Part shown: piece by piece, positions 2,323 to 49,490 of the stretch
Position numbering within the stretch: the first letter of the stretch is position 1
Layout: each line of letters opens with the position of its first letter
Assembly (NCBI GenBank): GCA_021292105.1
Contig: CM037865.1
Coordinates: 66,337,630 to 66,401,629 of the forward strand
Length of the DNA: 64,000 nucleotides
Reading direction: 5' to 3'
Source: Anadara kagoshimensis
Lineage: Eukaryota; Mollusca; Bivalvia; Arcoida; Arcidae
Made by a program: the position numbers and the translations under genes
The notes under the pieces: model-generated
Told to the model about the DNA's origin: nothing
What the model saw: the letters and a program-made list of their open reading frames with translations, nothing else
Database searches by the model: none

Positions 2323-2925
2323 AATATACATTTCAAGGTCATGAAATAAGAAATATCAAATAATGGTAGTTTAAAAACTGATGATGTACAAGTCTTCGCT
2401 CTGCCCTCTCTCTCTCTCTCTCATATTTCATATACTTATTAACGTTTTTAAAAATATTTATTTATTTATTTATTTTTATTTATTTATTTACACACAAATA
2501 ACAATTGGTAAAAAGTATCTAAAGTATCCCTAACATTACTACTCATGTAGATTAATCATCAGATTCCATTAAAATTCAAACCCATCTAGGTAATTAAAGA
2601 GATTAACAACATACGGTAAATTTTTCAGGTAGAATATACTATCGTCTGGCTAAAATGAGTTTGAATTTGCTTCTGTTATCAATTAGTTAGGTAAGTTGTT
2701 GATGAGATACCGGGGAAATGTTGATGATCATCAATTAGGAACCATGATTTGTATATTACCTATGGGCATAAATCCATAATGATAAATAGTCAAAACTACA
2801 CTTTGTTTTAGTTTAATAAATAAATAAATAAATAGATAAATAAATAATTAAATAAGAAGTTGTACATTGAATCAATTTAGAGCTCGGACATCATATTCGG
2901 AGCAGTATAGATTATAAATAAAAAT

Positions 2926-3100
2926 TGATTGATTAATTAATTAGTTATTGATTAATTAATTAATTGATTGATTAATTAATTAATTAATTATTAATTAATT
3001 AATAATTATTGATTAATTAATTAATTAATTAATTAATTATTGATTTAATAATTAATTAATGAATTAATCAACTAATTAATTAATTAATTAATTAATTACT
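2926..3100. repeat. (ATTA)n repeat
   Basis: Imperfect ATTAATTA/TTGATTAA tandem repeat, largely self-complementary. Confidence 0.9.
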
Positions 3101-3182
3101 TTGAAAACAATCATGAAACTTTATCACCGGACATTTATTTTTAATCGCGTTTTTCTCCAATTATTTTTGTGTAATATATACC

Positions 3183-3213
<31 letters not shown>

Positions 3214-3282
3214 GGTGCATCCTTAGCCAATTCAGGGTGGTTGAAAAAACACCATTATATGATTTAAATACATGTGTATGTC

Positions 3283-3475
3283 AGGGTGATCCTTAAAGAT
3301 CCTTAAAGCCGCATTAAAGATCCTTAAAATTTCAGTTCCATTAAGGATCTGTAAGGAAGCCTTAAAGATCCTTAAAGAAGATGGTGGTCCTTAAAGGGGT
3401 CTATAAGGAGGCTTTAAGGATCTTTAAGGACATCTTTAAGGATCTTTAAGGATTCCTTAAAGACCCTTAAAGGAG
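3283..3475. repeat. Inverted array of CCTTAAAGAT motifs
   Basis: The left part repeats 'gatccttaaag' in plus orientation (3289-3380). The right part repeats its complement 'ctttaaggatc' (about 3411-3450) before returning to 'ccttaaagacccttaaagg'. The array can fold into a hairpin. It does not match the other repeats in the window. Confidence 0.7.
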
Positions 3476-4020
3476 GGAGTTGGTCTTGTGTTAACAGCTT
3501 TTTGATAAATGCACTTTTAGTAAAACTGAAATAGAATCACTATTTTGTTTATTTACAGCTTCCCTAATGGTAATACATTTTAAACAGAAATGGAAGAAAG
3601 ATTTATTTTTTTAAAATTAAAAGAAATTTTAGGGATTGGTAATATGAATAGATTGTATTTATTCTTTAACCAAACACAGACAAACTGATTCGTGTTCAAA
3701 TCACAAATCACAAAATACAATCACTTTCAGCACTGGCAAATTAAGCATTATGCGTGGTATTGCAACTTATTTTACTTTCAATCTCTTTCATTCTAATATT
3801 TCAAGTTTTTTTAAAAAAAAAGACTGTACCTGAAATCATGTCCATAATCCTCCATTCATAATGAATTGTTGTAATATGTTTGGTCTTTTGGCCCCAATAA
3901 TGTAGTTTTAGTTTGGACGGGAGTTTATTATGTTTTACCACTCGCAATTCACTTGTTTCATATTCAACCTTCTAACAATTTCAATTGGTAAACGATAGAA
4001 ATATTTATTCGACAAATATT
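3476..4020. other. Non-coding, nothing recognised
   Basis: AT-rich intron or intergenic DNA; no conserved exon or repeat seen. Confidence 0.4.
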
Positions 4021-4021
4021 A

Positions 4022-4237
4022 GTTAACCTTGATATATTTTCCGTCCCATCGTTCCATGTTCCTTACCCACAATTTTGATTACACACGCGGTGGGTGTAGC
4101 AAGCTAAACATGAGGTGCTTACCCTTTGGGAGCACCCGGCTTCACTTCCCTGGCGGAAGTTCACGTGCTTAATCTCTCTTATCAGTTCCAATTCAGTTCC
4201 AAATTGAGATTCAGACATGGATTGGTATGTATGTGTT
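4022..4237 (+). mobile_element. Penelope-like element 3' tail fragment
   Basis: Matches the conserved tail shared by about two dozen fragments here: 'gattacacacg', 'aggtgcttaccct', 'gagcacccgg', 'ccctgg.ggaagttcacgtg', and the end 'gacatggattggtatg'. It starts about where the reverse-transcriptase ORF of fuller copies ends. It is a 5'-truncated copy lying 200 bp upstream of the first recognisable fibrinogen-gene exon. Confidence 0.75.
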
Positions 4238-6520: not shown

Positions 6521-9500
6521 AGCCCCAAGATTGCCAAGACGTTTTTCTAATGGGCCATGTGACAAATGGTGTGTATACCATATACAGATCTACCGGTCAT
6601 TATGATGTTTATTGTGACATGGAAAGAAATGGGTGGACGGTAACGCATATCTCTCTCTCTCTCTCTTCCGATTAATATTTAAAAACCAACATCCAACACA
6701 CCAGTTAAAAATGACCGTGATACACTGATCAAAAGAACCGGCTTACAGATCACAGTGTCTCACGCTATCATGTTTTAAGTTACATCAGGGAATAAGATGT
6801 AGGTAGGGTTTTAAATAGCTTAGCTTTCTGTTCTTCTAAAGGTGACAACATTGCTACTAGTGTAATGATTGTAAATTAAGTTTATAACATCATCACTTGT
6901 GAATGCTTAGCAATGGGACTACAATACATAAGAATGCACCGTTGCTGTTACTTATATCACTCGGATATACGTTTACCAATGCCACATATGTAAGGATTAG
7001 CTGTAATAGTATATATTTATACAATGAAATAACTTTTTATAAGCATAAACGCTCTTGCATATATTTTTTAACTTCATTATTATTATTTGTTAGAGAAAAT
7101 ATAAAATAGAAAGTATTTTTTCGAATACACTATGCTTCAGAAAGGCTAAGTTGGAGTACAATTTATATTTTATCAAGAAATATAAGTAAGCAGTTAGATA
7201 CTATTACATTGTATTTTTGGTATTGTTTTTAAAACATTTTTGTCAATTTATTCTTTATATCTGAACTTAATAACTAAGGTTATACTAAAGTATTTATATA
7301 TTTCATAAGTTTAACATAATTTGTCAGTTTTAGATTTTATTGGGGGGGGGATTTTGATGTTAACATCTACTGATTTTTGTTTTCATTATGTGTTATTACG
7401 GAAATAAACCTTGCTTCTAAGGTATACATTTTAATCAGTTTTTTATTATAAGGAATATTGTTCCGTGTCTTACAAATGTTTTCTGACTGACATTTAGCAT
7501 TTGTAATCTATTATAAAGGAAAAAAGAACAAAATATCACTACTCATACTTGACTTTTTGTGTCTAGGTTTTCCAGAGAAGATTGAATGGTTCTACAAATT
7601 TCTATCGTACATGGAATGCATATGTTACAGGATTTGGAAACGTAAATGACGAATTTTGGCTTGGTAAGTTTCTTTTTTATGTAACAATATCATAACTGCT
7701 TCTCCTACTTATGACGTATTTGATTTACATTTAAGGACGTATACTGCTAAACAGCCCAAACTTTCCTGCATTAAACTTTTATTACCTGATGTTTGGAAGG
7801 GTGGAAGGGTATGGCAATGATTTATGAAGAAAAGTGGTGCACTAATTTTTTGCTATGTTAATGCAGATATACCCTAATGTTTTTGCATTTATACATCCAG
7901 ACACAAAAGTCCTCATTGAATGATATTTTGAACCATCTTTTTTAGTAGGACGTGGACGAAACATGTTAAAAGAAGGATTTTATTAAATATATTTTATCTA
8001 ATATTATATTCGTGATACAGAATGGATTGCAAGTAATAAAATGGTATGCTTTTTCAAAAGTGGTTGGTTATTACATGGAACTAAGTTTCAAAAGTTTTTT
8101 TTCAGTTTTTTTACTAAGTACAAATATAAAAAATTAAATTTTGTCATAAATCTTTTCAATTGTGTTTACCACTTGAACTACAATTGAACCTTCTGTCAAT
8201 TATGTCATTGAAGTACATACTATACAGTAGTTCTTTGACAAATATAAGTTATCAAAATGTAACAAACATGTGTCAAAACTGCTTTTTTAAAACGGTTATA
8301 TAAGGAGCCTGCAAAATTTTGGGTCGGACCTGTACAATATGGACCACTGCTCTCTTGGACAAACCCCATATGTCCGTGGCGCACCACACTAAGGGCCACT
8401 ACTATTAACGATAACTCATGATATTGTTATACGTTTATTTTTTTCATGTTGGACACTTTAGCAAAATAATAAAATATGTTTAAATTTAATTATAGCGTCT
8501 GGTATTTTTGTAGGGCTTAACAAAACATATGAGATTACGTCATCAAAAGACTTGTACGAATTACGCATTGATATGGAGGATTATGCTGGGGTTTGGAAAT
8601 ATGCAATGTATAGTCATTTTAGACTAGGCACTCCCTCTGAAAAGTATAAATTGATATATCAAAGTTATGCAGGAGGGAACGCAGGTAAACCTTTTAGCGA
8701 CTTAACATACCATAACCTCTCCATACGGTAAACCAAAAATTTGTTGATAAACTGAATAAGAAATATTTTGAAATTGTTATACGATGTCATTAACACTACA
8801 GGCTATAATTTGGTTATTTAGTAACATCTTCTGCCACCTATTCATTACGATTTGATATGAAAAATCATGCAGGGGTTTGGAAATTCGCAATGTACAGTAA
8901 TTTTAGATTAATTGACGCATCGGCAAATTACAGTTTGGTTTATTTGTTTCCCAATTAATACGTTATGGTAGAGCTTGTTCCCACTACGGGGACTTTGTAC
9001 AACGAAGTAGGCTGCTTGAAAATAAATTAATGACTCCGAGATATTGCAAGCCTAGGCTTATCAAGGCCCTCAAAAAGTTTTATTGCCGTCATCACAGTAT
9101 TATTGATAACTTTAATGTCTCTGTGTCCAGGATTGCCCTGGATATATTTGACGTCTCATAGTTCCCTGTTCCTTTCACACAATTTTGATTACACACGTGG
9201 CGGGTGTAGCTAGCTAAACAGGAGATGCTTATCATTCCGGAGCACCCGGCCGCACTTCCCTGGTGGAAGTTCACGTGTCTAACCTAACTTGTCAGTTCCA
9301 AAGTTTTTACTTTGCTACTGGATTGTGGTTCGGACATGGATTAGTATGTTTGTTTTTTGAATTAATTGAATTATTTGTTTAGGTTTTTTTATTAAGATGC
9401 TATCGGTAAATATAAGGTTACAAACAATCATATCATTCCATTTTAAATTACAAAAAAAAAAAAAAACAAAAACAAAAACAAAGTAAAAACTAAAGACTAA

Positions 9501-10812: not shown

Positions 10813-11245
10813 GGACTAAATATTGTATATATGTGGAGGATTCTATCTTTCGTACATCTAACATCTAACATCTCACATACACTAGGTGTAAACACAAAGA
10901 TTAACTGCATTCGGGGTTTTTAAAATGATGTACATAAAGTTACACATGCCATAAAGGCATTGTGTTACATAACTTTTGTTTTTAAATAGAAAAAAATGTT
11001 TAATATTTCTTTATTTAACAATCAGTAGCTGTGATAGCCACGCGATTGTGTTGCTTTCTGGTATGTATTGTGTTTAAAATTTGAAAGAATAATTATAATT
11101 GTCTAAATTTCCTGCATTAAAATTTGAAATTTACTAAAACTAAGGTATACTCCCTCATGCAAAGTATTTTCTTAGCTTAATTTGGTAAAATATATTTTGG
11201 TCCTTTGTGTAGCTTTTCAACGTCTTCAAAATAATTTTGGTTTCA

Positions 11246-11313
11246 TAATTTTGGTCCAAGCACTACTGATGAGGAATTGTATTCCGAAACGGCCGTCTAG
11301 TGCTGTAAAATTA
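11246..11313 (+). ncRNA. Type I hammerhead ribozyme (complete core)
   Basis: All conserved core bases are present: CUGAUGA at 11266-11272, GAAA at 11286-11289, and GUC before the predicted cleavage site after 11297. Stem I is 7 bp (AGCACUA 11259-11265 with UAGUGCU 11298-11304). After an internal loop (GGUCCA/GU) it continues as a second 7-bp helix (11246-11252 with 11307-11313). Stem II is a perfect 5-bp hairpin (GGAAU-UGU-AUUCC). Stem III is minimal: ACGGCCGU is palindromic, giving a 3-bp stem with a 2-nt loop or a dimer. This is the architecture of retrozyme and Penelope-element hammerheads, which often act as dimers. It should self-cleave an RNA transcribed from the plus strand. Confidence 0.88.
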
Positions 11314-11581
11314 AAGCTGGTATAATATGTAATTTAATCCCCTGAGCCGATATCTCTGCTGGTGGCTGGTGCATCGAGGATATCACAAACTCAGTAGGCA
11401 AGGATTTCGTATTATTGTCAGAAATATACTATAATTGTCTAAATTTCCTGCATTAAAATTTGAAATTTACTAAAACTAAGGTATACTCCCTCATGCAAAG
11501 TATTTCCTTAGCTTAATTTGGTAAAATATATCTTGGTCCTTTGGGTATCTTTTCAACGTCTTCAAAATAAATTTGGTTTCA

Positions 11582-11649
11582 TAATTTTGGTCCAAGCACT
11601 ACTGATGAGGAATTGTATTCCGAAACGGCCGTCTAATGCTGTAAAATTA
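11582..11649 (+). ncRNA. Hammerhead ribozyme, second tandem copy
   Basis: Same fold as the copy 336 bp upstream: CUGAUGA 11602-11608, the same stem II hairpin, GAAA, palindromic ACGGCCGU, and predicted cleavage after 11633. One stem I pair is lost (UAAUGCU in the 3' strand, so one C-A mismatch). Cleavage at both sites would release a 336-nt RNA. Confidence 0.8.
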
Positions 11650-11672
11650 AAACTGGTATAATATGTAAATTA

Positions 11673-12880: not shown

Positions 12881-13078
12881 CACTCAATTCTAGTTTGAGA
12901 ATTTTAATCAGTTCACTAATACAGGCATGAACTGATACAGAATTTTTCGTTATGCACGATTTTATGAGTCAGAAATTTTAACTATTTAAATATCTATACA
13001 AGGAAAGATATATAGCTCATCTAAATGTCCTACTTAATCACTATCGTTAACTCTAACACAAAATTTGACATTCACTAA

Positions 13079-13477
13079 TCCATGTTAGAATCACAGTTCA
13101 GAAGCAAAGTAAAAACTTTTGAATTGACAACTTAGGTTACACACGTGAACTTCTACCAGGGAAGTGAGGCCGGGTACTCCGGAAGGATAAGCAGCTCTTG
13201 TTAAGCCAGGTACACCTGTGACGTGTGTAAATAAATTGTGTAAAAGGAACATGGAACTATTGAGTGTTAAATATATCCAGGAAAGTCCTGGACACAGAGA
13301 CATTAAACTTATCAACAATACTGTGATGACGGTAATAAAACTTCTTGAGGGCCTTGATAAGCCTAGGCATGCAATATCCCTGGGTAAACAATTTATTTGC
13401 AAGCAGCCTGCTTCAATGAACAAAGCCCCCGTAATGGGAACAAGCTTTACCGTAGCATATTGGTTCGAAAACAAGTA
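13079..13477 (-). mobile_element. Penelope-like element (minus), interrupted by pogo-type element
   Basis: Minus-strand copy covering the tail and last ORF segment, up to the 'atggta..agcttgttcc' region at 13440-13460. The ORF then breaks at TA 13476-13477 and continues after the pogo-type transposon at 17727-17810 (minus-strand match to the YDKRDDFN…IV…F segment). The two parts fit end to end, showing the transposon landed in this copy. Confidence 0.8.
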
Positions 13478-14626: not shown

Positions 14627-16644
14627 ATGTATAGAGTGAAAAGTAAGCGAGTTGAGAATGTTTATCAGAAATACAACGATAATAAGCTAGAAGATGCTTG
14701 AGTGATGTGAGAGGAGGAATGCGCCAACGCCAAGCCTCGAAGAAACATGGGGTACCACAGTCCACTATAAGTGATTATATCCGCGGTAGAACGGAACCGG
14801 GTGCAGCGCCAGGGCGTCCTGTTGTTATCCCCAGAAGATCTGAGAAAGCCCTGGCGGATAAGGTGATGCTAGCAGGGAAAATGGGGGTCGAAATGACGAA
14901 AAAGCAAGTTTTGACAAAGGTTGGGCAATTAGTTACGTCATTGAAAATAAAGACACCGTTCAAAAATGGAAAACTCGGGAAAAAATGGTGGCTTAATTTT
15001 AAGGAAAGAAACCCCGATATAACCATACGGAAGCCAGAAAAACTTTCCTCAGTCCGGGTTAGAGCAATCAATTCAGTTCAAACTGGAAATTATTTCATCG
15101 ATTTATTAAAAGTCTTGCAAGACTTGCAGTTAGAGGACAAGCCTTATGCTATTTGGAATATGGACGAAAAGAAGTCCAGTTTTGAGCATAATCCAGGCTA
15201 CGTTGTTGCATCCAAAAAGTCTAGAAACATACCGGGGCGTACAGGGGTAGTAGAGAAAGTGTTTCGGTTGTAGTTACCGTAAATGCAGCGATTACCAACG
15301 CTTATAATTGTAAGAGGAAAAAAGCCAAAAGCCCTAAATGGGTTTAGCACACAAGAAAGTCCTAGAGATGCTAATTGGACTTACCAGGAAAAGGCTTGGA
15401 CCGAAAACATTATCGGAGTCCAGTGGTTTCGAGACATTTTTTGAGGCATTGTGGGTCGCATAGACCACAATTACTCATTCTCGATGGTCATATATCGCAT
15501 GAAGTTGTATAACTGCTCGAGGAAGCTAGAAAAAACAACATACACATATTGTGCTTGCCAGCGCACAGCACTCATTACTTAAATCCATTCGACAGAAGTG
15601 TATTTGGTCCATTAGAAAAGTATTATAATACTGAGTGTTCAGGACATCTTTCAAATCCTGGCAACAAGCAGGACAAAATATCATGGCCAGGTATTTTCGC
15701 TGCAGCTTATGAAAAAGCTCTCGTACCGACAAACATTATATCAGGCTTCAGGTCATGTGGCATAGTGCCGTGGAATCCTCTTGCTGTTCCCCAGGCAGCA
15801 TTTTTGCCATCCATTCCGCAAGATGCTTATGGTTCTGCAAATGCAGATTCTGAACACCCGCTGATGTGGGTCATCAGAAAAATTACCCCTGTACAAATTA
15901 CACATTCTGATAATATAAGTGCATTAAGTTCATGCTCTAGTTACTCCACTTTGACATCAGCATCATATGTTCCTGCCGACAGAATATCACTTGACACTAC
16001 AAATTCAACGGTGAATATTGACACTGGTCTCCTTAATACCGAAGCGGTTACTGGCCGTACTTTAACCACATGTGTAAGTACTGCAGAAGGAACTGATGAT
16101 CTTGAATGGAATTCCGTATGGAATTTAGAAATTTCATCTGCAGTGTCTGGAATTATTGATTTGCCGTTCTCTCTTCCGGAAGATAACTATTAAATGTACA
16201 GGAGTTACCCGGTGATCTTCCGCCTTCCGATTTGACTAAAGACAACTCCGTTAGTACTGCACACACGTTGCCAATGCCACTATCAGGGAGCGAAATTCCT
16301 CCTTTGTCAGTACTTTCTTCCATGATGATGATAGTCCAGTACCTGCTTTACCCCTCTCAGAGATGTTATGGGATAAAGAGATTGCTTAATTGTTCACACC
16401 ACAAATGAACAAAACAAAATTTGATAAATCAAAGAAAAAGAAAGCTGTTGGTCATCGTTTACTGACAAGTGATGAAATTATTAATAACAAACTGAAGGAA
16501 CAGAAAGATTAAATGGAAGCAGAAGCGAAAAAGCTGGAAAGAAAACAAATCAGAGAAACAAAGAAAAGGGAAAAGATTGAAAAAGAAGCTCAGAAAAAAA
16601 TTTCGAAGTTAATTAAATCACAGATACTGCTGCAAACCAATTAA
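14627..16644 (+). pseudogene. pogo/CENP-B-type DDE transposase, broken
   Basis: Starts at ATG 14627, right after an acceptor-like 'ttttattttctag'. A frameshift near 14700 leads to the psq/CENP-B helix-turn-helix (MRQRQASKKHGVPQSTISDY), the second DNA-binding helix region (KKWWLNFKERNPDITIRKP), and the catalytic start (YAIWNMDEK, first Asp). After a stop at 15271 and a frameshift come the equivalents of LILDGHISHE (second Asp) with a TAA nearby (about 15508). Then comes LPAHSTHYLNPFD…VFGPLEKYY, typical of DDE_1 transposases. A Lys/Glu-rich tail continues to about 16644 with more stops. At least four lesions make it inactive. Confidence 0.85.
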
Positions 16645-20307: not shown

Positions 20308-21090
20308 TTATGTGTCCATAACAAAATCTTTAAACTTTCCAGGAATTTTAATTTCACGCTTTGGCCTATCAACACTATTAAACTTTGGAATATCCTCAGA
20401 CTCATTATCAGACACATGAGGTTTAACAGTCTTAGGTGGTGAGGCTGGTAGTACATTTGAACTTAATTTTTGTGATTCGGACTTAATTGGCAAATCATCA
20501 ATTTCCGGTTCCGGTTCGCTTACGTCGGACAAACAGCTATCTGACCTTTCTAAGTATTTCTTTAAATGGGTTATATTGCGCTTGTAATTAACACCAGTGC
20601 TCGACTCAACTGAACAACTATTTCCTTGACGCGAAGTGACTCGATATGGCTCGGGCTCAAAAGTTGGCGTTAACTTATCTTCGCGTTTTTGTTTCAAGAG
20701 TACAGAATCGCCTACAGATATGTCACTTTCTTGTGCATTCCTCCTTTTGTCGGCATAAATTTTACCCTTCGACTTGTTTTCGTTGTCGCGATCACGAATT
20801 TCCAAATCATCGAGCGAATACTCGTCTATAGCAGGAAGCTTAGTTCGAAGTTTGCGTTTAAACAGAAGCTCGCTAGGACTTGTGCCTGTGACACTATGTG
20901 GAGTAGTTCGGTACAACACCAAATAATTATCAAGCTCGTCGCGCCAATTACGTTTCTCAATTTGTGCTATTTTAATGCGCTTAAGTAGAGAACGGTTCTG
21001 TCGTTCCACTTCACCATTAGCCTGAGGCCATAAAGGTGTTATACGTCTGTGTTCTATTGCCTCTTCGGTTAGAAACTTGCTCTTGCAAAT
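20308..21090 (-). pseudogene. pol: Gypsy integrase, core end and C-terminal region
   Basis: The open part (20308-21009) starts at the catalytic-Glu region (NGEVERQNRSLLKRI) and carries YRTTPHSVTG…PSELLF, typical of Ty3/Gypsy integrase. A charged C-terminal tail follows. Upstream, the TSDNGPQF motif (second catalytic Asp) is in another frame: a frameshift at about 21074-21090 separates it from the Glu part. Together with the in-frame stop at 21234-21236 this disables the integrase. Confidence 0.85.
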
Positions 21091-21233
21091 TGCTCGCTTA
21101 TAAACTGGGGACCATTATCAGAAGTCAATGACATTGGAAGCCCATGAGTTAGAAACATTTTACGGAGACTAGCAATGACTTTATCGGTAGTCGTCGACTT
21201 AAGTACATCAACTTCGATATAACGACTATAGTA

Positions 21234-23162
21234 CTAGTAATCTACAGCGACAAATAAATGATCTCCCGACGGTAATGACGGTATCATTAAATCAACTGCA
21301 ATATGTTGCCATGGACCTGACGGTAACTCGGTCGTCTTAATTGGTTCGGGCGGCTGCGGCATACCGACAATCTGACATGACTTACATGTTTTACAAAACA
21401 ATTCAGCATCACGGTCAATTCCTGGCCACCACACCTTCGAACGCAATAGTCGCTTCATCGAAACAATACCCGGATGACCTATATGTGCTATCTTGAGAAC
21501 ATGTTTACGTAATATTTCTGGTATCACTATGCGAGTACCACGTAAAATTAATTTACCTATGAAACAAAACTCGGATCGTACTGGTAAATATTTCTTGTTA
21601 CTCAGTTTGTGCCAATTACCCGTCTCGACACAATAACGCAAATTAACGAGATCCTCGTCTTCGTTTGATGCCCTTTCTATTTCGCGAGTAGACAACGCAT
21701 TTGGAGTAGCTTTTTCTGCAACAAATCGCACATAATCATCAGTATCGTTTGCATGATCAATTTCGGTCATTTTTGTTAAACGCGACAGACAGTCTGCTAT
21801 ATTCGATTTACCTGCAATATGCCTAACTACAAAAGTGTATGGTTGCAAACGAAGTACCCACCTTTCGATACGTGCACTTGGTTTCGAACGTTTAGAATAT
21901 ATAAACTCAAGTGGTTTGTGATCGGTATAGAGTTCAAACTGTGTACCAAATAGGTACATGTGGAAACGCTCACACGCCCAGACGATTCCTAATGCCTCAC
22001 GTTCGGTCTGTGAATACCGTTTTTCTACATCACTAAGTGTTCTACTGGCGTATGATATAACGCGATGTTCACCGTCTTTCTCTTGTAGTAATACACCACC
22101 GAGTCCTACAGGGGACGCGTCTGAAATTACTATCGTTTTCGCATTGCGATCAAAATATCCCAATGTTTCTGCATTGGTTAAACTCACTTTAAGTTCATCA
22201 AATGAACGTTGTTGTTCAGAACCCCAAGTAAACTGAACACCTTTTTTGGTTAAACGGCGCAACGGCTCTGCAACGGTCGCAAGATTCGGAATAAAACGAG
22301 CCATGTAGTTTACCAATCCGAGAAAACTACGTACTTCTGATGCGGATTCTGGTTTTCGCGCTTCCGTAACAGCATCTATTTTGGACTGCGTTGGGCCAAT
22401 CCCCCTTGCTGTCAACAAATGACCCATAAACTCTAACTCGGACATTTTAAATAGGCACTTATCTTTGTTAAGAGTAAGACCTTTCTCTTGTACACGCTTT
22501 AACAATGCTTCGAGTCGAATATCGTGTTCTTCAACGGTTTCGGCATGGACAATAATGTCGTCAAAAATATTACGAACGCCTTCGCAACCTTGAAGTGCTT
22601 GCTGTATCACCCGCTGATACATTTCTGGCGCGCAACAGACCCCAAACATTAATCTTTTGTACCTGTACAGACCTTTGTGCGTAACAAAAGTCGTAATTTG
22701 CCTAGATTCCTCGGTTAACTCGAGCTGATGAAAAGCCCACTTAATATCCAACTTGCTAAACACTTTACTAGCATTCAAGTCATGAAGTACCTCGTCAACG
22801 GTAGGGATTGGGTGTCGCTCCCTTATAATTGCAGCGTTAGCTTGACGCATGTCAACGCATAATCTAATATCATTACCCGCTTTCGGAACAACTACTATTG
22901 GCGAAATCCATGGTGTCGGACCTTCCGCTTTCTCTATAACATCTAGACTCTCAAGTTCATCTAGCTTTCGTTCCAACGGCTCGCGTAAACTGAACGGAAA
23001 CCTACGTAACGGCTGAGCAACGGGTTTAACATTTGGGTCAATGGGAATTACTAACTGAAAATCACGCAACTTTCCCACACCTTCAAAGCATGACTTGTAC
23101 TTAACAAACAAATCAACGGATTCGTTTTGATCTACACGATAAACGGAAATAAATAGACCCAA
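21234..23162 (-). pseudogene. pol: Gypsy pol: RT, RNase H, integrase N-terminus
   Basis: 642 codons. Order: end of protease, reverse transcriptase (VPKAGNDIRLCVD near residue 93, FSKLDI, catalytic NIFDDIIV at 199-205), RNase H (VISDAS at 345-350, TDHKPLEF), and integrase zinc finger (HIGHPG…WWPGI…CKTCKSC). It ends in AVDLMIPS with the first catalytic Asp. The frame stops at TAG 21234-21236, where a 6-bp insertion-like 'tagtac' interrupts the core. The frame is -1 relative to gag-protease. Confidence 0.9.
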
Positions 23163-23197
23163 CTTTAAAACATCTAAATTAATAGCAGCCTCTCTAC

Positions 23198-24355
23198 CTA
23201 AAAGTGCTTGACCTCTACCCTCGATAACAGAAAATTCAGTTTGAATATATTTTGTCCAACAGTAAGATCACAGGTAAAACATCCTAACACTTGTAATGGA
23301 ACTTCACTTCCATACGAATACAATTTCTTGTCAGTTTTTCGTGATTCACATTTAATTTTACACGATTTCAGGTATTCCCACAACTGTTTGTCTATAACAT
23401 TGCAACTTGCACCGGAATCTATGATCATTTTGATATTATGAACACCTCCTACACTTGCCATAACTGTCGACTGTTTATCGTCAATAATATGAAATGCAAA
23501 ATCACTACTTTCCTCGTCCACCAAGTTAACTTTTCCTTTTCCTGCAAGTCGTCCATGTCCAGAATTCTTCTGTTTTGAATTCTTCTTAGTCTGACAACAT
23601 TTAGCGAAATGTCCTATTTTGTGACATTTGTTACACTTTTTATTCTTTGCAGGACAGTTCGGATTCTTCTGAAAATGTCCTACTCCATCACATCTGAAAC
23701 ATCTGTCCTGTCTTTGACGATTTGGTTGACTTTGACGTGACATACTTTGACCTTGATCCTTGACCTTTTGACTTATCTTGTTTACAGTCTCATTCACAGC
23801 CATTTTGTCTGCCTGAATTCCACTTGCTTCTCTAGAACGTGCAAAATCTTGTAAGTCCTTCAGTGTCAAACCTTTCCCTTTTTCAAGAAGTTTTGTTCTT
23901 AAACTTTGTGATGAGCACTCGGCAATAACCTGATCCCTGATTTCATCATCCACGTGTGTGAACTCGCAATACGCGGCTTGTTGTCGAAGTCGCGTGACGT
24001 ACTGATCTACTGTCTCTGAAGGAGTTTGAGCCATTTTCCTGAAAACATGTCTTTCATACGTTATATTCACACGAGGCTTAAAATAATTGTCCAACTGTTT
24101 GACGGCTACACTATACACATTTTCGTCTTCACCGGGCTCCACTTCCGGAAACGTGAAATAAATATCCTGTACCTGCATGCCAGCGCAATGTAACAATAAA
24201 CTTTTACTTTGTTGTTTATCAGTCACCCCTTTGGCGTTTAGGAACAATTCGAACGACCTTTTCCATTTAAGCCATCTTATGCCCACTGATGCTTGATCAC
24301 CATTACAGTTAAAATGATCCAATTGCCCTAGATCCGTCAACACCTTCGTTGCCAT
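23198..24355 (-). CDS. gag: Gypsy gag-protease polyprotein
   Basis: 385 codons from ATG 24355. Capsid-like region (IRWLKWKRSFELFL, SETVDQYVTRLR), then two zinc knuckles: CFRC…GHF…NPNC at about 219-234, with five instead of four residues before the last Cys, and CNKCHKIGHFAKCC at 241-254. The aspartic protease active site is DSGA at 313-316. The protein ends in a frame that leaves the protease early (…VEVKHF). The rest of the protease (VIEGRGQALLGREA) is in the -1 frame leading to pol. Whether this is programmed frameshifting or a 1-bp lesion cannot be told from one copy. Confidence 0.9.
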   Translation of the reverse strand: MATKVLTDLGQLDHFNCNGDQASVGIRWLKWKRSFELFLNAKGVTDKQQSKSLLLHCAGMQVQDIYFTFPEVEPGEDENVYSVAVKQLDNYFKPRVNITYERHVFRKMAQTPSETVDQYVTRLRQQAAYCEFTHVDDEIRDQVIAECSSQSLRTKLLEKGKGLTLKDLQDFARSREASGIQADKMAVNETVNKISQKVKDQGQSMSRQSQPNRQRQDRCFRCDGVGHFQKNPNCPAKNKKCNKCHKIGHFAKCCQTKKNSKQKNSGHGRLAGKGKVNLVDEESSDFAFHIIDDKQSTVMASVGGVHNIKMIIDSGASCNVIDKQLWEYLKSCKIKCESRKTDKKLYSYGSEVPLQVLGCFTCDLTVGQNIFKLNFLLSRVEVKHF

Positions 24356-24429
24356 TTCGAATTAAATTCTATTATAACGTATTTAAACACAGTACCTGCA
24401 CAGTAATGTTATGTAAACATCTACTTGTT

Positions 24430-24681: not shown

Positions 24682-25545
24682 CTAATAGGCTTCAAATAAA
24701 AGGTATTGCTTTATATTTAGACTTATACCCGAATCGCCCGGTCCAGGGATCGAACCCACGACCTCATGATTCGAAGGTCGTGGGTTCGATCCCTGGACCG
24801 GGCGATTTGTTGTGTCCTTGAGCAAGACACTTAATTTCACGTTGTTCCAGTTCACTCAGCTGAAAAATAAATGAGTACCAGCAAATTGCTGGGGGTTAAC
24901 CCTGCGATGGACCGGCGTCCCATTCAGGGGAGAGTCTTGTACTCTCAGTCGCTTAACGCCACCGAAACCGGGATAAGCTCCGGCCTGATGGGTCTAATGG
25001 CTCGGGACAGACTTTAACTTTATACCTGAATCACGACACACAAGAAACAATACATTTAAAACTTTATGACAAACGTGATGACTTCAATTTTTCTATTGTC
25101 AACTTTCCTTTTCTATACAACAATATGCTTGTTTCTCCTGCTATGAGGTATTTGTTTCCCAATTAACACGCTATGGTAGAGGTTGTTCCAACTATTGGAC
25201 TTTGTTCAACAAAGCAGTCTGCATGCACATAAATTGTTGACCCAGGGATATTGCAGCCTAGGCTTATCAAGGCCCTCAAAAAGTTTTATATTACAGTATT
25301 GTTGATAAGTTTGATGTCTGTGTGTTCAGGATTGCCCTGGATATATTTGACTTTCCATAGTTCTATGTTCTTTTCATACAATTGTGATTACACACGTGGT
25401 TGGTGTAGGTACTAAACAGGAGGATCGTACCCTTTCGGAGCATCCGACTTCACTTCCCTGGTGGAAGTTCACATGTATAATCTAAGTAATGTTTTACTTT
25501 GCTTCTGGATTGTTATTCGGGTACGGATGAGTATGTTTGTTTATG
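24682..25545 (+). mobile_element. Penelope-like element, right part, containing a SINE
   Basis: Continuation of the copy at 19640-19851: YCFIFRLIP-type sequence (24700-24735), then the SINE (24736-25020). After the SINE come LYDKRDDFNFSIVNFPFLY-like codons, the ORF end ('ggatatattgcagcctagg', 'gataagtttgatgtctg') and the tail ('gattacacacgtggttggtg', 'gagcatccgac'), ending near 25545. Confidence 0.85.
24736..25020 (+). mobile_element. SINE with inverted head, 12-bp target duplication
   Basis: Bounded by TATACCCGAATC (24724-24735) and TATACCTGAATC (25021-25032). The right arm of the head (24775-24805) has a consensus B box GGTTCGATCCC. The body has 'gatggaccggcgtcccattc', 'actctcagtcgcttaacgcc' and 'ataagctccggcctgatggg', a block I have seen commonly in bivalve SINEs. 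The first 31 bp form a perfect inverted repeat (24734-24764 with 24775-24805) around a 10-nt loop, so the head has been copied back on itself and no A box remains. Confidence 0.85.
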
Positions 25546-36732: not shown

Positions 36733-37130
36733 TCTGGATTTATAATCAATTGTTCATATACTTGTAACATTTTGTCGGTTTGTTTAACGTGTTTGTTGTT
36801 CCGTGGTTACATCAATTATTGACATGGTCATTAATGATCAGCTACAAATAACTTTTTATTGTCTATCCATTTGTTTTTAACAAAGTTTTATTAACAATCG
36901 ATTTATTTGGTTTACGTACTGTGAAATTAATGTTATCTAACTCGATACATTGGTATCCATTTAGTAATGAAAATCAATATGATTTACCTGATTTATTGTG
37001 CCATAAAATTAAACATTCTGTCAGATGACGTTGTATAATAACAACTTATCATAAAAAACCCAATACTCCATGACTGCCTGCTAATAAAATATCTCTAAAT
37101 TTTGTAGAAAATATATAACCCAATTTAATT
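36733..37130. other. Non-coding, nothing recognised
   Basis: AT-rich; no supported element. Confidence 0.4.
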
Positions 37131-37192
37131 TTATACCAGCTTAAAACTAGATGTCCGTTTCAGAATACAATTCCTCATTAATACTTATAATT
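37131..37192 (-). ncRNA. Decayed hammerhead ribozyme remnant
   Basis: On the minus strand 'aatgaggaattgtattctgaaacggacatctagt' aligned in two parts to the hammerhead repeat. It keeps most of stem II and GAAAC but has lost CUG of CUGAUGA and stem I pairing, so it should be inactive. It shows the repeat family also inserts in this orientation. Confidence 0.6.
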
Positions 37193-37863
37193 GGAGCAAA
37201 TTGTGAAAAATCCAATTTTGTTACCTTTGACTGAGCAATACTTTCTTATCACAGACAATAGATTCACAATTAATTATAGATCACAGACAAAATGGGGATC
37301 ACGGTCACATTTTCCACAAAAGACTACAGTTAATATACAATTATATACATCACCAATATCACATTATATTATTGTTTTAAAGTCTGAGATATAAAAATTA
37401 AAAATTTAATTAACGTTTAGTAGAGATTTCGTCTCTAACTACCCCTCAATAAAATCTTCCATCAGTACTGCAGGTCATTATTTGAATAGTTATTCTCCCC
37501 CTTTACTTGCTCCCAGCATACGCTGATTCTGTCCCCTAACCAATCGTTTCTATTTCTCCTGTAATATTAATATAAATAAAATGCAAGTATTATAATAATC
37601 AATGTTGAAGAGGTCAAATAAACCGTATTGTCCAGAATTATAAATACTTCAAAATAAATTTTCAATCAATATTTTGTCAAAAATTCTTTTAAAAAACTTC
37701 TACAATTATTTTTGTAATGTGAAGATGTTGGACTGTTTCTGTTGCACATAACTTTCGTGTTACATTATAAATATGATAATGTATTTTAAAACCAATTATA
37801 AAATGTTGTACTTAGGCTGTGTCCATTGAATTCTTGTAAAGAAACATGTTGCAGCTTGTATAA

Positions 37864-38225
37864 CTAAATGAAAACAACTGTATTGTCATCGCAACAAATA
37901 CAACAGAACATATTATGTAATATAGAGTCATATTTTGATTGGAAACAAAATGCCAAACTTTCTAGCTTGATTGACTTACTTGCAAGTTGTCGATGCTTGA
38001 AGACTTTAAGCTTATCTGTCAGAGTTGGCAATGTTGCTGAATCACCTGCTTCGGTTTGCCATTTCTTCAGACTATGAAAACACTTTTCCTGCATTGATGG
38101 TTTCGTTTTATCAATTTCTACCAGGTCACCTTCAGACACTCCGAGTTTCCTCGCAATGGCTTTCCAGTCTTTGACAGCATATGGGTTTTGTGCCACTATT
38201 ATAAAAGCTCGACGGAGAAAAGAAT
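37864..38225 (-). CDS. FADD-like gene: death-domain terminal exon
   Basis: Acceptor TTTTTCTTTCCAG (minus strand) precedes the exon; stop at 37864. The exon reads DSFLRRAFIIVAQNPYAVKD, then WKAIARKLGVSEGDLVEID, then QEKCFHSLKKWQTEAGDSA and TLTDKLKVFKHRQLA. The pattern W..LA..LG…I..I…E…L..W…A....L...L is the six-helix death domain, which makes homotypic contacts in apoptosis and innate immune signalling. It joins in phase 1 to the exon at 38813-38921. A C-terminal tail of about 40 residues with CCICC follows. FADD-like architecture is inferred from the preceding exon. Confidence 0.8.
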
Positions 38226-38812
38226 CTGGAAAGAAAAACAAAAAAAAACATTAAAAATTAAGACAGAGTGCGACATTGTATTCAAGATTTTCCGTTAACC
38301 TCCCTTCCAGCTTTATATAACTCTACTGTAGTTAGACTTCGATTACAAATCCAACTAAAGTGCTAAGAAACAAAGTTCAATGACGGACAGATTGACGGAA
38401 AATTTTTAAGAGTCAAATTATGGAGATTATTTTTATAGTCGTGTACCAAATGAAAAATTAGTACAGCCTAATGTGTTAGAAATCTTCTTCTTATATAGCT
38501 CATTTGAGTTGTCCTAAAATACTTGTATCTTCTTGTTCATACACTTGTATTGAAACTAAAGCATTATTTCTAGATTTCAAACAAACTTACACAAATAATT
38601 AAATGTACGAGGCAGAAGGCAAATTCACTTTATAATAAAATAAATACATATGGCAAAAACAAATCAAACAAAGTTGAAATTATTCATTGAGAAGGTCGTC
38701 CTTGCACATGGGGTAATATCGGTTGGGCAAAAAAAGCAACTGGTAAAATCTGTGTCCACCATCCAACAATAACTCTGTACATTTGTACTACATATATGTT
38801 CGTAACAATTAC
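38226..38812. other. Intron of the FADD-like gene
   Basis: No repeat or further exon recognised. Confidence 0.5.
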
Positions 38813-40686: not shown

Positions 40687-40905
40687 GTTGCCAGTTAAAA
40701 TTTGAAATTACTAAAAACTAAGGTTAACTCCCTCACGCAAGATATTTCCTGAACTAAATTTGGTAAAATATATTTGGTCCTTTGGGTATCTTTTCAAGAT
40801 CTTGAAAACAAAATTGGTTTCATATTTTTGGTCCAAGCACTAATGATGAGAAATTGTAATCCGACACGGCCGTCTAGTGCTGTAAAATAAAACTGGTATA
40901 ATATC
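40687..40905 (+). repeat. Hammerhead repeat, single decayed copy
   Basis: Same repeat as 11094-11672. The ribozyme at 40836-40881 keeps stem I (AGCACUA/UAGUGCU) and the palindromic ACGGCCGU. It has AUGAUGA instead of CUGAUGA and GACA instead of GAAA, two core changes expected to abolish cleavage. Confidence 0.8.
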
Positions 40906-41385: not shown

Positions 41386-41522
41386 TGGGTTGTTTTTAGT
41401 CAAATAGAGTAACAATTAAGTTAAATCCTTTTGCGTGTAAGATATGGTACAAAGTAAGACAATATAAAATTAGAATTTCCATACAGTAGAGACCTATCGT
41501 ACTCTCAAACTAACGACCAAAA

Positions 41523-41970
41523 GTCGGCAGAGTGTCGAAAATAAGGACAGCAAGTGACCAAAAAGATGTCGAAAGGTAGATAGCAGTTGATGAAAAATAC
41601 AGCTAACGAAGGGCCAAAGATGAGCTGCCAATTCAGCACTTATTCGCTAACTAATAATGAACTTTAGATGACCTGGGTTTTACTTTGTAGCACTGGTATT
41701 CAGATATTTAATTTGTCGAGACTTACTAGTGTCAGGGCGTTTTAAAGTCGGCAGAGTGTCGAAAATAAGGACAGCAAGTGACCAAAAAGATGTCGAAAGG
41801 TAGATAGCAGTTGATGAAAAATACAGCTAACGAAGGGCCAAAGATGAGCTGCCAATTCAGCACTTATTCGCTAACTAATAATGAACTTTAGATGACCTGG
41901 GTTTTACTTTGTAGCACTGGTATTCAGATATTTAATTTGTCGAGACTTACTAGTGTCAGGGCGTTTTAAA
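41523..41970 (+). repeat. Perfect 224-bp tandem duplication
   Basis: Two copies (41523-41746 and 41747-41970) starting 'gtcggcagagtgtcgaaaat' and ending 'gtgtcagggcgttttaaa'. I read no difference between them, implying a very recent duplication or an assembly artefact. Confidence 0.92.
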
Positions 41971-42524: not shown

Positions 42525-42811
42525 TTAAAATGTTTTATGGCCGTCATCACAGTATTGTTGATAAGTTTGATGTCTCTGTGTCCAGGATTGCATTGGATAT
42601 ATTTGACGTCTCATAGTTTCATGTTCCTTTCACACAATTTTAATTACACACGTGGCTGTTGTAGCTAGCTAAACAGGAGGTGCTTACCCTTCCGGAGCAC
42701 CCGGCCTCACTTTCCTGATGGAAGTTTACGTGTCTAACCTAACTTGTCAGTTCTAAAGTTTTACTTTGCTTCTGGATTATGATTCGGACATGGATTAGTA
42801 TGTTTGTTTTG
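42525..42811 (+). mobile_element. Penelope-like ORF end plus intact tail
   Basis: One of the best-preserved tails: 'ggccgtcatcacagtattgt', 'tttgacgtctcatag' (stop), 'aggtgcttacccttccggag', 'ggacatggattagtatgttt'. Confidence 0.85.
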
Positions 42812-45794: not shown

Positions 45795-47950
45795 TTATAA
45801 ATATTGCAACACATCACAATTGTACAAATTATATATACATTAGTCTATACTGGAGACTGCCTAAATGTAATCAAATTACCATTTTTACTCAAAAAACAAT
45901 TAACTTATGTTTGGTGTTTAAGACTTATTTTTTATTTCAAAATTAAATCGCCACCAGTTATTTACTCATTCAATAAACCTATTGCATCCGAAATATGTAA
46001 TTATAAACAAACATTGCAGTGTTTGAACCTTCATAATTTTACTCTACCTACCTGCTCTTGTTCGTCTTCTTCCTATATTTATGGACCAACTGGACATGCA
46101 ATAACTGGTGATCTCAATATAATCGTGAGCACTAAATTAAGATCTTTACTTTCCAAAGGTCCTAAATATAGAGAAGCTCATTCTTTTACTTGGGACAGAA
46201 TTTTAGAATTGTCATGGATTCTGTTAAGAGTACGCTAGACATTGTGCCTATAAGAAGATGTGGAGCTTGACACCTCATCCGACTTGAAAAAGGTTGTTAG
46301 ATCTTTCGTTAAAACGAGGATTGCCAAACCTAAAGGGTCTATGAGTACTAAACCATCTTCTGTACTGAGGGACCCAGAATTTTTGGCAATTATGTCAGAC
46401 ATAAACAACAAATACAATGTTGTCCCACCTGTCAAGGCATCCAACAACATTATTTTCGTTTGTAAGAGACTCTAGCGTTAATGTCTTATTAAGGAGCTTA
46501 GTGAATATGGTATATCAGATAACGCTGCATAAACTAGAACTAATTTTACCAAAGATGAAGTTCTGTCTAACCATAGGGGAGTTCTATGTTCTTTTGGCAT
46601 CAATCTTAAAGAGGAAGAACTTGACCTTTCTTACTTGTATTGAATTCCTAAACTCCATAAAAATCCATACAAGGAAAAATATATTGCAGACTCATCTTAA
46701 TGTACTACTAAATCATTATCTGTAACTCCAACACAAATTTTAACAGTCGTCTAAGAAGGTCTTCAGTGGTATTCAGAAAAGGTATATTCTACATTTGGCA
46801 TGAACCAAATGTGGATTTTAAAAAGTCTAAAGAATTACTTGAACATCTTGCTTCTAATATATTATTTCATGTAGAAAAGTATAAAAACATTTGATTGTGT
46901 ACACTATACACCACTATCCCTCATTCTAAACTGAAAGAAGGTCTTAAAGAAATTATTCACATTTCATTCTTTTACAAAACGGTAAGCCAATATACAAATA
47001 TCTGGTGTTGAACAGTGATTCTGGTTATTTTGTCAAGCATTATACGGATCGCAAACAAAAAATACTGAAGATACTATCAACAACATTTTGGAGCTTTTGA
47101 TAGAAAACATATTTGTTGTGTTTGATAATATAATTTTCCAACATAAAATCGGTATACCAATGGGCACAAACTGCGCACCATTGCTTGCTGATTTGTTTCT
47201 TTATTCTTATGAAGTCGAATTTATTCAGATCCTAGTTAAATCTGTAGAGAAAAGTGTCGCCAAATCATTCAACTCATCATACAGATATATAGATGACGTT
47301 TTGTCTCTGGACAATCCTAAATTTGGAGACTATGTGAATGTGAATGCCTATTGAGCTTAAAATTAAAGATACGACTGATTTCTATAGTTCTGCTTCATAT
47401 TTAGACTTCAACCTGGATTATGATGCCCACAAAAGGCAACGTTTGAACCTTTATGACAAAGTAAAGACTTCATTTTTATGTTGTCAACTGTCTTTGCAGC
47501 AATATACCTGCTTCTCCTTCTAATGTTGTATTTGTTTCCAATTTATACGCTATGGTAGAGCTTGTTACCACTATGGGGGCTTTGTTCAACGAAGCAGGCT
47601 ACTTGCAAATAAATTGTTGACTCAGTGATATTGCAAGCCTAGGCTTATGAAGGCCCTCAAACATTTATTTTTACATTACAGTATTGTTGATAAGTTTGAT
47701 GTGTCTGTGTGTGTCTGTGTCCAGGATTGCCTTGGATATATTTGACGTCCCAAAGTTCCATTATCCTTTTACATAATTAAGATTACACACGTGGCGGGTG
47801 TAGCTAGTTAACAGAAAGCGCTTCTCCTTCCGAAACACCCGGCCTTACTTCTCTGGTGGAAGTTCACGTGTCTAACCTAACTTGTCAGATCCAATGTTTT
47901 ACTTTGCTTCTGGATTGTGATTCAGATATAGATTAGTATGTTTGTTTTTT
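45795..47950 (+). mobile_element. Penelope-like element, longest copy
   Basis: Covers most of the protein with frameshifts. N-terminal part: VIYSFNKPIASEICNYK, YGPTGHAITGDLNI, STKLRSLLSKGPKYRE at 45950-46190; VPPVKASNNIIFVCK at 46422-46466. RT palm: FQHKIGIPMGTNCAPLLADL and YRYIDDVLSLDNPKFGDYV at 47088-47345. It ends in the ORF terminus and conserved tail ('gattacacacgtggcgggtg' at 47783). The GIPMG…APLLADLFLY and YIDD motifs are those of a Penelope-like or related RT. No GIY-YIG endonuclease is visible before the tail. Confidence 0.82.
47088..47354 (+). pseudogene. Penelope-like reverse transcriptase palm segment
   Basis: 88 open codons including IGIPMGTNCAPLLADLFLY (template/primer grip region) and the catalytic YIDD. 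The frame is lost before and after. Confidence 0.85.
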
Positions 47951-48554
47951 TAATATATTACACTGCCAATTTCCGGTAAAATAATATTTCGTTATGCAAG
48001 TTTTAATGGATATTGATCAGTTATAATTGGTCAGGCTTATCCATTTTATTGACCTACAATTGTACCTAATACACACCTGAAAACATTTATTTGTCAATGT
48101 TTATGTACAGGAGTGAATTATCATATAATATGTTTCTGCGTTTTTATCTCCAGGGAATCATTATATCGTTATCGATTAAAGTTCTGGTAAATCAATTATT
48201 TAATCTGCCAAAATCTAAACATCAAGTGTTGTCAAATACAGTTTTGAATTCATTAAAATAAAAATTACAATAATCAATATTTGTTTAATATTTAATTTCA
48301 ATCGTCAATAGAATATTTCATTCTTTGCTTATGAAAACTTATTTTTTTTAATTAAAAGTTGATAGGGGAACTGAAGCATATAAAGTGACGATTTAATTGT
48401 GTATTATGCTTCAGTAGATAATCTGAATGAGTGTTTAAAAATAAATAGACATTGGGCTATATAAATGACAACATTGCTCCATGGTCCAAATAAAAGATAT
48501 TTAGAAGAAGAAACGTCTTGGTTTTACTGTAAACGTTGTAACAGGATATTTAAA
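47951..48554. promoter_or_regulatory. 5' flank of FReD gene 2
   Basis: AT-rich sequence upstream of the first exon, starting right after the Penelope-like tail. 'tatataaatga' at 48459-48469 is a possible TATA element, but its distance to ATG 48555 is short. No promoter element can be assigned with confidence. Confidence 0.3.
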
Positions 48555-48855: not shown

Positions 48856-49149
48856 GTAAGAAATAGCATTTACAATTTAAGTATAAAGTTCTATCATTTT
48901 TTTTATTAATTTTATTTTTGGAGGCCAAATTCTCAACTGTTCAGTTTTTTTGATTGACGATAATAATAAATAATGTTTATACATTAATATATATCTTAAA
49001 GAGTACCTGTAACGATTTTTGTTTGATTTCATGTTTGTGTTAAATACCATTTTAATATCAGAATATCGAAAACTGCATCAAAATTGATGACCAACTTTAA
49101 AAAGTTAAATCTGTTTAAATCTACGGATTTAACCATCTCAGATTCGATA

Positions 49150-49490
49150 CAAGTGAAACTACCCATTTTGAAAGATATCTGGTGCCCCGAGGATATCACC
49201 AACTCAGTAGGCAATAATTTCGTATTATTGTCAGAAATATACTATAATTGTCTAAATTTCCCGCAAGTTAAAATTTGCAATTTCTCAAAAACTAAGGTAT
49301 ACTCCCTCATGCAAAGTATTTCCTTAATTTCATTTGGTATAATATATTTTGGTCCTTTGGGAAGCTTTTCAACATCTTTAAAATAATTTTGGTTTCATAA
49401 TTTTGGTCTAAGCACTACTGATGAGGAATTGTATTCCGAAACGTCCGTCTAGTGCTGTAAAATTAAAACTGGTATAATATGTAATATCTA
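49150..49490 (+). repeat. Hammerhead repeat, single copy in FReD gene 2 intron
   Basis: Shares 'cgaggatatcaccaactcag' and 'tattgtcagaaatatactat' with the full unit at 11.3-11.6 kb, and includes the ribozyme at 49398-49465. It is in the first intron, in sense orientation with the gene. Confidence 0.85.
49398..49465 (+). ncRNA. Type I hammerhead ribozyme (complete core)
   Basis: AGCACUA 49411-49417, CUGAUGA 49418-49424, stem II hairpin 49425-49437, GAAA 49438-49441, ACG-UC-CGU stem III, and predicted cleavage after 49449. UAGUGCU 49450-49456 closes stem I, and the outer helix UAAUUUU/AAAAUUA is also kept. The only differences from 11246-11313 are in the stem III loop (UC for GC) and the stem I internal loop. 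It would be transcribed as part of the FReD gene 2 pre-mRNA. Confidence 0.87.

Follow-up and report, generated by a model that had tools for sequence, protein, structure and literature searches.

A High-Copy Repeat with Type I Hammerheads in Anadara kagoshimensis: a Probable Retrozyme with a Shared 3' Terminus and One Filled/Empty Insertion Site

Results and Discussion

The window analyzed here, a stretch of 64,000 nucleotides (G000:C9:66337630-66401629, in a 1.115-Gb assembly of 36 contigs), contains a short tandem repeat with two hammerhead motifs, whose relatives are dispersed over the genome. We consider it likely that this repeat is a high-copy, non-autonomous retrozyme of the metazoan non-LTR kind, whose template for reverse transcription would be circular or multimeric RNA and whose copying would begin at a fixed internal site, with a Penelope-like element as the likeliest helper. 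Elements of this kind are known; the informative additions are a fixed 3' terminus and a pair of filled and empty sites.

Two Type I Hammerheads in a 336-bp Tandem Repeat

As shown in Table 1, the tandem repeat (element A) amounts to 1.72 copies of a 336-bp unit. Self-comparison of the window aligned two 243-nt stretches (11094-11336 and 11430-11672) with 97% identity at an offset of 336 bp; the true 3' end of the element is probably at 11668. The original prediction had placed in this repeat two type I hammerheads spaced by 336 bp, with every core base kept, and both are indeed present with complete cores. In A1, stem I is composed of an outer arm (TAATTTT/AAAATTA), an internal loop and an inner arm (AGCACTA/TAGTGCT), and is accompanied by CTGATGA, a stem II (GGAAT/ATTCC), GAAA and a stem III (AC/GT) around GGCC. 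The layout is that of type I, stems II and III being closed by loops and the ends of stem I being open, in A1 and A2 as well as in the hammerhead of copy B, and all three have the conserved CUGAUGA and GAAA and a cleavable UH where the three helices meet. A two-part stem I had been claimed for both copies; in A2 its inner arm contains a mismatch, and A2 is probably the weaker ribozyme. Double cleavage would release a 336-nt unit, which has a GC content of 34.5% (32% for the window). The longest stop-free run in the element is 49 aa.

Table 1. Positions of the Retrozyme-Related Features in the Window
Feature	Position	Strand	Remarks
Element A, 1.72-unit retrozyme tandem	11094..11672	+	Both limits set by homology
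Type I hammerhead A1	11246..11313	+	Predicted cleavage after C11297; sequence, RF00163 (28.1 bits), descriptor
Type I hammerhead A2	11582..11649	+	Predicted cleavage after C11633; C11599-A11636 mismatch; RF00163 23.6 bits
336-nt unit, putative double-cleavage product	11298..11633	+	Release would require both cuts
Copy D, old fragment of hammerhead and 3' end	37122..37222	-	70-78% identity; family model R1 31 bits
Copy C, 5'-truncated, decayed, mutated hammerhead core	40695..40904	+	89% identity to the A region; family model R1 76.1 bits
Target-site duplication ATATCT, left copy	49175..49180	+	
Copy B, 303-bp insertion, 5'-truncated single unit	49181..49483	+	Missing from L042 and L043
Hammerhead of copy B, full core	49398..49465	+	Predicted cleavage after 49449; descriptor; RF00163 23.9 bits
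Target-site duplication ATATCT, right copy	49484..49489	+	

When queries of 101 bases were submitted, the top Rfam family was Hammerhead_1 (RF00163) for A1 (E = 1.5e-5), A2 and copy B alike, with scores that were all below the gathering score of 34. The whole 64-kb window gave no Rfam match at the gathering score, and with E ≤ 10 the hammerhead was absent among the matches of both 1-kb and 64-kb queries. The original prediction had itself named the lack of a covariance-model match above threshold in the window as evidence against it, and on this formal point the result is unfavorable, even the best short query (28.1 bits) remaining under 34. We infer that the misses on long queries are losses at the speed filter. 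A run of RF00163 on the whole genome gave no match, but neither did any of 14 controls.

Plain folding did not favor the hammerhead, and we regard it as uninformative. Compared with shuffled sequences, neither the 76-nt hammerheads (z = -0.49 and +0.61) nor the 336-nt unit (z = +0.42) had any extra stability, and the hammerhead fold lay 5 to 7 kcal/mol above the minimum free energy for A1, A2 and B, in a model that has no loop-loop contacts.

Three further copies were recognized in the window. The region of copy B (49179-49489) is 91% identical to that of A by self-comparison. In copy C the core reads ATGATGA for CTGATGA and GACA for GAAA, and Rfam listed no hammerhead on it.

Dispersal and Conservation of the Family

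An exact core pattern (CTGATGA-N-GAAACGNCCGTC) matched the genome 6097 times (3135 + 2962), and the reversed pattern, used as a control, 0 times. Within the window, a descriptor of the motif (CTGATGA, GAA, stem II of at least 3, stem III of at least 2 and stem I of at least 3) had two matches, A1 and B, against an expectation of 0.005 per 64 kb on both strands, as estimated from 200 first-order Markov simulations; A2 fails the descriptor because of its stem I mismatch. These figures bear out the earlier statement that chance agreement is very unlikely. A fortuitous resemblance to hammerheads would sit well with a score under the Rfam gathering threshold, yet both the descriptor matches and the genome-wide count reduce its probability to a practically negligible level.

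The core matches occur as singles and as tandem arrays, often with a spacing of 339 bp (five in locus L011). The units measure 336-339 bp, and in tandem they abut directly, uninterrupted by coding sequence. Stem III consists of two pairs closing a GNCC loop. Its palindromic character, which had been pointed out for the pair in element A, is real in that copy and is not found in all members of the family: the sequence is ACGTCCGT in copy B and ACGACCGT in several of the 100 core matches that were listed. A dimeric mode of hammerhead action is hence possible for some copies and is not a rule of the family.

Across 23 arrays, the core and inner stems had changed at 11 of 896 sites, compared with 124 of 4293 in the upstream unit (Fisher p = 0.0036, with sites treated as independent). 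The outer part of stem I (15 of 300 sites changed) was under no constraint, and 4 of 276 sites had changed in the stretch downstream of the hammerhead. In 81 distinct hammerheads, standard pairs occupied 90.4% of the paired cells (94.4% in stem III), versus 30-44% when the partners were slid out of register. Changes on both sides of a pair were seen at 12 of 21 pairs, against a mean of 4.8 after shuffling; the number of cells with such changes was 16, versus 13-21 in the slid controls. Since this cell count shows no excess over the controls, we make no claim of strong covariation.

The exact patterns had no match in the viral_contigs and genome_contigs collections, and blastn against phages and plasmids likewise returned none, leaving viral, phage, plasmid or bacterial relatives unsupported. 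Two viral-contig matches to a looser pattern (L001 and L002) were rejected, as on reading they look like GC-rich coding DNA.

Insertion Ends and a Filled/Empty Site

We mapped the ends of 45 arrays by extending their homology to one real L011 unit outward from the first and last hammerheads; we then removed four loci whose flanks are duplicated and one array truncated by the end of its locus, leaving 40. In 34 of these, the 3' end fell at +27 to +43 past the cleavage site (modulo the unit), the commonest position being +38 in unit coordinates (11 of 45). This was so for all 18 arrays that came from the window or from similarity searches. The other 22 arrays were picked consecutively on contig C1, a choice that guarantees an exact core in each, and 16 of them agreed. 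As for the six misses, one (L019, plus strand) reaches the end of its locus, four (L018, L025, L035 and L040) end elsewhere, and in L017 the printed junction has the family 3' sequence resuming after a short break.

The 5' ends, by comparison with this clustering, were scattered, occupying 9 of the 10 bins into which the unit was divided, with insert lengths from 52 to 1836 bp in the 40 arrays; along C1, three of the 22 arrays were longer than one unit. An apparent gap in the insert lengths, between 311 and 428 bp, is a selection artifact, most of the 18 arrays from the window or similarity searches having been retrieved with a 404-nt query. The junctions that we printed mostly end in or near ATATGTAAT, and none has a poly-A or simple-repeat tail. 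Matches between the two flanks were modestly more extensive than in permuted pairings for the 34 arrays with standard ends (mean 3.15 versus 2.50, reached in 2 of 500 permutations), and a looser target-site test on 44 arrays held little signal (4.52 versus 4.15, means only).

One insertion could be read directly. On the same contig, a near-identical duplicate (L042, at C9:71498835 on the minus strand) aligns with the window as far as 49180 (99.4% identity) and again beginning at 49484 (99.8%), and the intervening stretch is missing from it; ATATCT occurs once in this locus and on both flanks of copy B. A second, more distant locus (L043, 92 and 88% identical) is also empty at this site. The filled and empty sites, together with the single versus double ATATCT, identify copy B as an insertion of 303 bp that duplicated 6 bp of its target. 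Several near-identical duplicates of the window region lie on C9, near 66.26, 66.54-66.56, 71.50, 71.54 and 71.60 Mb; element A is common to two of them (100 and 97%), and copy B is missing from two. Most simply, copy B would have inserted after its segment was duplicated.

The sequence immediately to the left of copy B (48996-49180) is a separate dispersed repeat, found in many places at about 80% identity, with no hammerhead in the loci that were read. We also asked whether copy B belongs to a larger element including an upstream frame (49027-49386), and rejected this because that stretch is a separate repeat, present in L042 without the hammerhead.

Units diverged by 1.5% within arrays and by 4.9% between arrays, and 14 of 17 units had their nearest relative in their own array; among six multi-unit arrays, the exception was L054, whose internal divergence (7.1%) exceeds the between-array mean. 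Such likeness fits the repeated copying of one circle, and unequal crossing-over could give the same pattern. The repeat might accordingly be regarded as a passive satellite, spread by unequal crossing-over and duplication and carrying its ribozyme as a useless relic, a possibility with which the tandem arrangement, the unimpressive folding and the duplication of the very region around element A (L003 and L004) would also agree. We consider it very improbable, on three counts: copy B inserted cleanly and is flanked by a target-site duplication, arrays with different flanks share their 3' ends, and the core and inner stems are better conserved than the upstream unit.

A Model for the Spread of the Repeat

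Returning to the retrozyme interpretation, the shared 3' end, the scattered 5' ends, the 6-bp target-site duplication and the absence of poly-A and simple-repeat tails from the junctions that we printed together point to target-primed reverse transcription with an internal start. Because the insertions end past the ribozyme cut, the junction must have been intact in the template, which would then have been either a closed circle or a multimer left uncut. Copying of a cleaved linear monomer from its own 3' end cannot give such insertions.

The following sequence of events would account for these features. Tandem copies would be transcribed, and the transcript would be cut by its type I hammerheads into units of 336-339 nt, which a host ligase could then close into circles, as proposed by analogy with published relatives. 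Reverse transcription, primed at the target DNA, would start at a constant position within the unit, some 37 nt beyond the cleavage site, and a polymerase rounding a circle would give multi-unit, 5'-truncated insertions. The likeliest source of the enzyme would be a Penelope-like element.

Two loci have open frames with matches to both reverse transcriptase (RT) and a C-terminal GIY-YIG domain: L072, of 762 aa, and L073, of 576 aa, whose RT match lies below the Pfam cut-off. The 150 candidates scored for GIY-YIG yielded 50 matches. Neither the family model R1 nor a hammerhead search gave any match in the 3.6 kb searched of each of the two loci.

The existence of such frames in the genome raises the alternative that the repeats are no independent family at all, being instead fragments of the pseudo-LTRs of a Penelope-like element with the same hammerhead, or derivatives of such an element by deletion. 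Penelope-like elements are described as having tandem pseudo-LTR hammerheads, with 3' tails that lie beyond the ribozyme (PMC11167929). The negative R1 result on 3.6 kb of each of the two loci speaks against such an origin, as do the direct junctions between units of 336-339 bp, which no coding sequence separates, and the presence of a stem III, which Penelope hammerheads usually lack according to the available text of PMC7761336; we regard this derivation as improbable. Of the two comparisons made in the original prediction, that with animal retrozymes is supported; as far as we could see, the repeat is not itself a Penelope-like element, given that its stop-free runs do not exceed 49 aa and that stem III is kept.

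Mobilization of a retrozyme by an ordinary LINE, in place of a Penelope-like element, is somewhat less remote and still unlikely. LINE insertions, too, are characterized by 5' truncation and short target-site duplications, and another RT family is very abundant in this genome (13,272 first-look candidates, of which 150 were scored). Against a LINE stand the printed junctions, which have no poly-A or simple-repeat tail and mostly share one terminus, and the position of the insertion end past the ribozyme cut.

The abundant RT family, which we also considered as a possible helper, has long open-frame relatives across the genome. A 111-aa piece of it matched telomerase RT at E = 3e-4, and also an unrelated enzyme at 0.0054, while a 737-aa open relative had no PDB match at E ≤ 1 and no GIY-YIG match. 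Pieces of the family are present in the window at 46672-47957, 8936-9358, 25020-25542, 42527-42810 and 13074-13477 (minus strand), among others, and two of them flank element A. In L058, an array of three hammerheads (1824-2588) is followed on the same strand, after about 220 bp, by a remnant of this family (2808-4096), an adjacency that may be coincidental given the copy numbers of both.

For the preferred helper, a Penelope-like element, a parallel is provided by work on Anolis, where internal initiation of reverse transcription downstream of the hammerhead was observed in vitro and explains the genomic tail (PMC11167929). Like Poseidon of Anolis carolinensis, as described there, the present repeat has a hammerhead near the insertion end, a tandem arrangement and a 3' end matching RT initiation at an internal site beyond the hammerhead, a site that we infer here from the insertion ends (34 of 40 arrays). 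The distances differ: the Anolis element is cut 26 bp into the frame, with RT initiation at 111-118 bp of that frame (PMC11167929), compared with a tail of about 31-41 nt past the cut in our repeat. The repeat further departs from Penelope-like elements in having a stem III and no RT or GIY-YIG frame. Tentatively, and with a little less than even confidence, we propose that the terminus at about +37 corresponds, in retrozymes, to the "tail" of Penelope-like elements, and that Penelope-type machinery copies RNA with a closed junction from an internal start. According to a 2020 review, as far as its available text goes, retrozyme repeats have no conserved motif from which their autonomous partner could be deduced (PMC7761336); if our proposal is correct, the terminus would be a signature of just this kind.

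Comparison with Known Retrozymes

The retrozyme interpretation put forward at the outset gained support from the sub-threshold RF00163 matches, the tandem unit of 336-339 bp, the dispersed cores and the one insertion with an empty site. The closest described system is the retrozyme of the mussel Mytilus galloprovincialis, reported by Cervera and de la Pena to comprise about 5000 hammerheads, usually in repeats of 350-390 bp, and to give abundant circular RNA (PMC7229834). Both have type I hammerheads in short, AT-rich tandem repeats, in thousands of copies; the mussel repeat has no coding sequence, and ours no stop-free run over 49 aa. The unit is shorter in the present case. More generally, metazoan retrozymes are tandem repeats of about 150-450 bp with a low GC content, a range that includes our unit, and their target-site duplications, when present, are said to exceed 4 bp (PMC7229834), in line with the 6 bp at copy B. 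The kind is further marked by the absence of coding capacity, LTRs, a PBS and a PPT, and by expression as linear and circular RNA of unit length. Retrozyme circles are described as highly self-paired in PMC7229834, unlike the 336-nt unit here, as judged from its folding.

The satellite retrozymes of newt and axolotl resemble our repeat in their tandem units of about 330-350 bp, type I hammerheads and weak stem III (PMC7229834); in the bivalve, unlike in these amphibian repeats as described, the two pairs of stem III close a GNCC loop, and a palindrome is seen in some copies and not in others. Plant LTR retrozymes (listed in PMC4918200) are also non-autonomous, hammerhead-bearing elements with a proposed spread through circular RNA (PMC7229834), and are set apart by type III hammerheads located inside LTRs, by a PBS and a PPT and by target-site duplications of 4 bp (PMC7229834).

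The route by which animal retrozymes return to the genome, and the enzyme they use, are left open in the available text of two accounts (PMC7229834, PMC7761336). In the sections of PMC7229834 consulted, no counterpart was found for the fixed 3' terminus past the cut or for the filled/empty pair. Literature searches combining retrozymes with target-primed reverse transcription returned only work on LTR elements; for hammerhead ribozymes and bivalves, there was no retrozyme work by title, and adding tandem repeat gave none. With a sharply defined common 3' terminus, 5' ends at many positions, insertions of several units and a filled/empty pair, this large family makes the circular-template model testable from genome sequence by itself.

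Other Elements in the Window

A retroelement on the minus strand (20308-24361) has more than one open frame and matches to RT, RNase H and an integrase zinc-binding domain, and from the order of the domains we take it to be Gypsy-like. A broken transposase at 14686-16193, with Psq-type HTH and DDE_1 matches, is presumably of the pogo/Tigger type. The open frame at 37867-38250 (minus strand), which matches the Death domain (E = 4e-10), is likely a host exon. Finally, a 224-bp repeat is found twice at 41520-41970, with 100% matches, reflecting either a very recent tandem duplication or an effect of the assembly.
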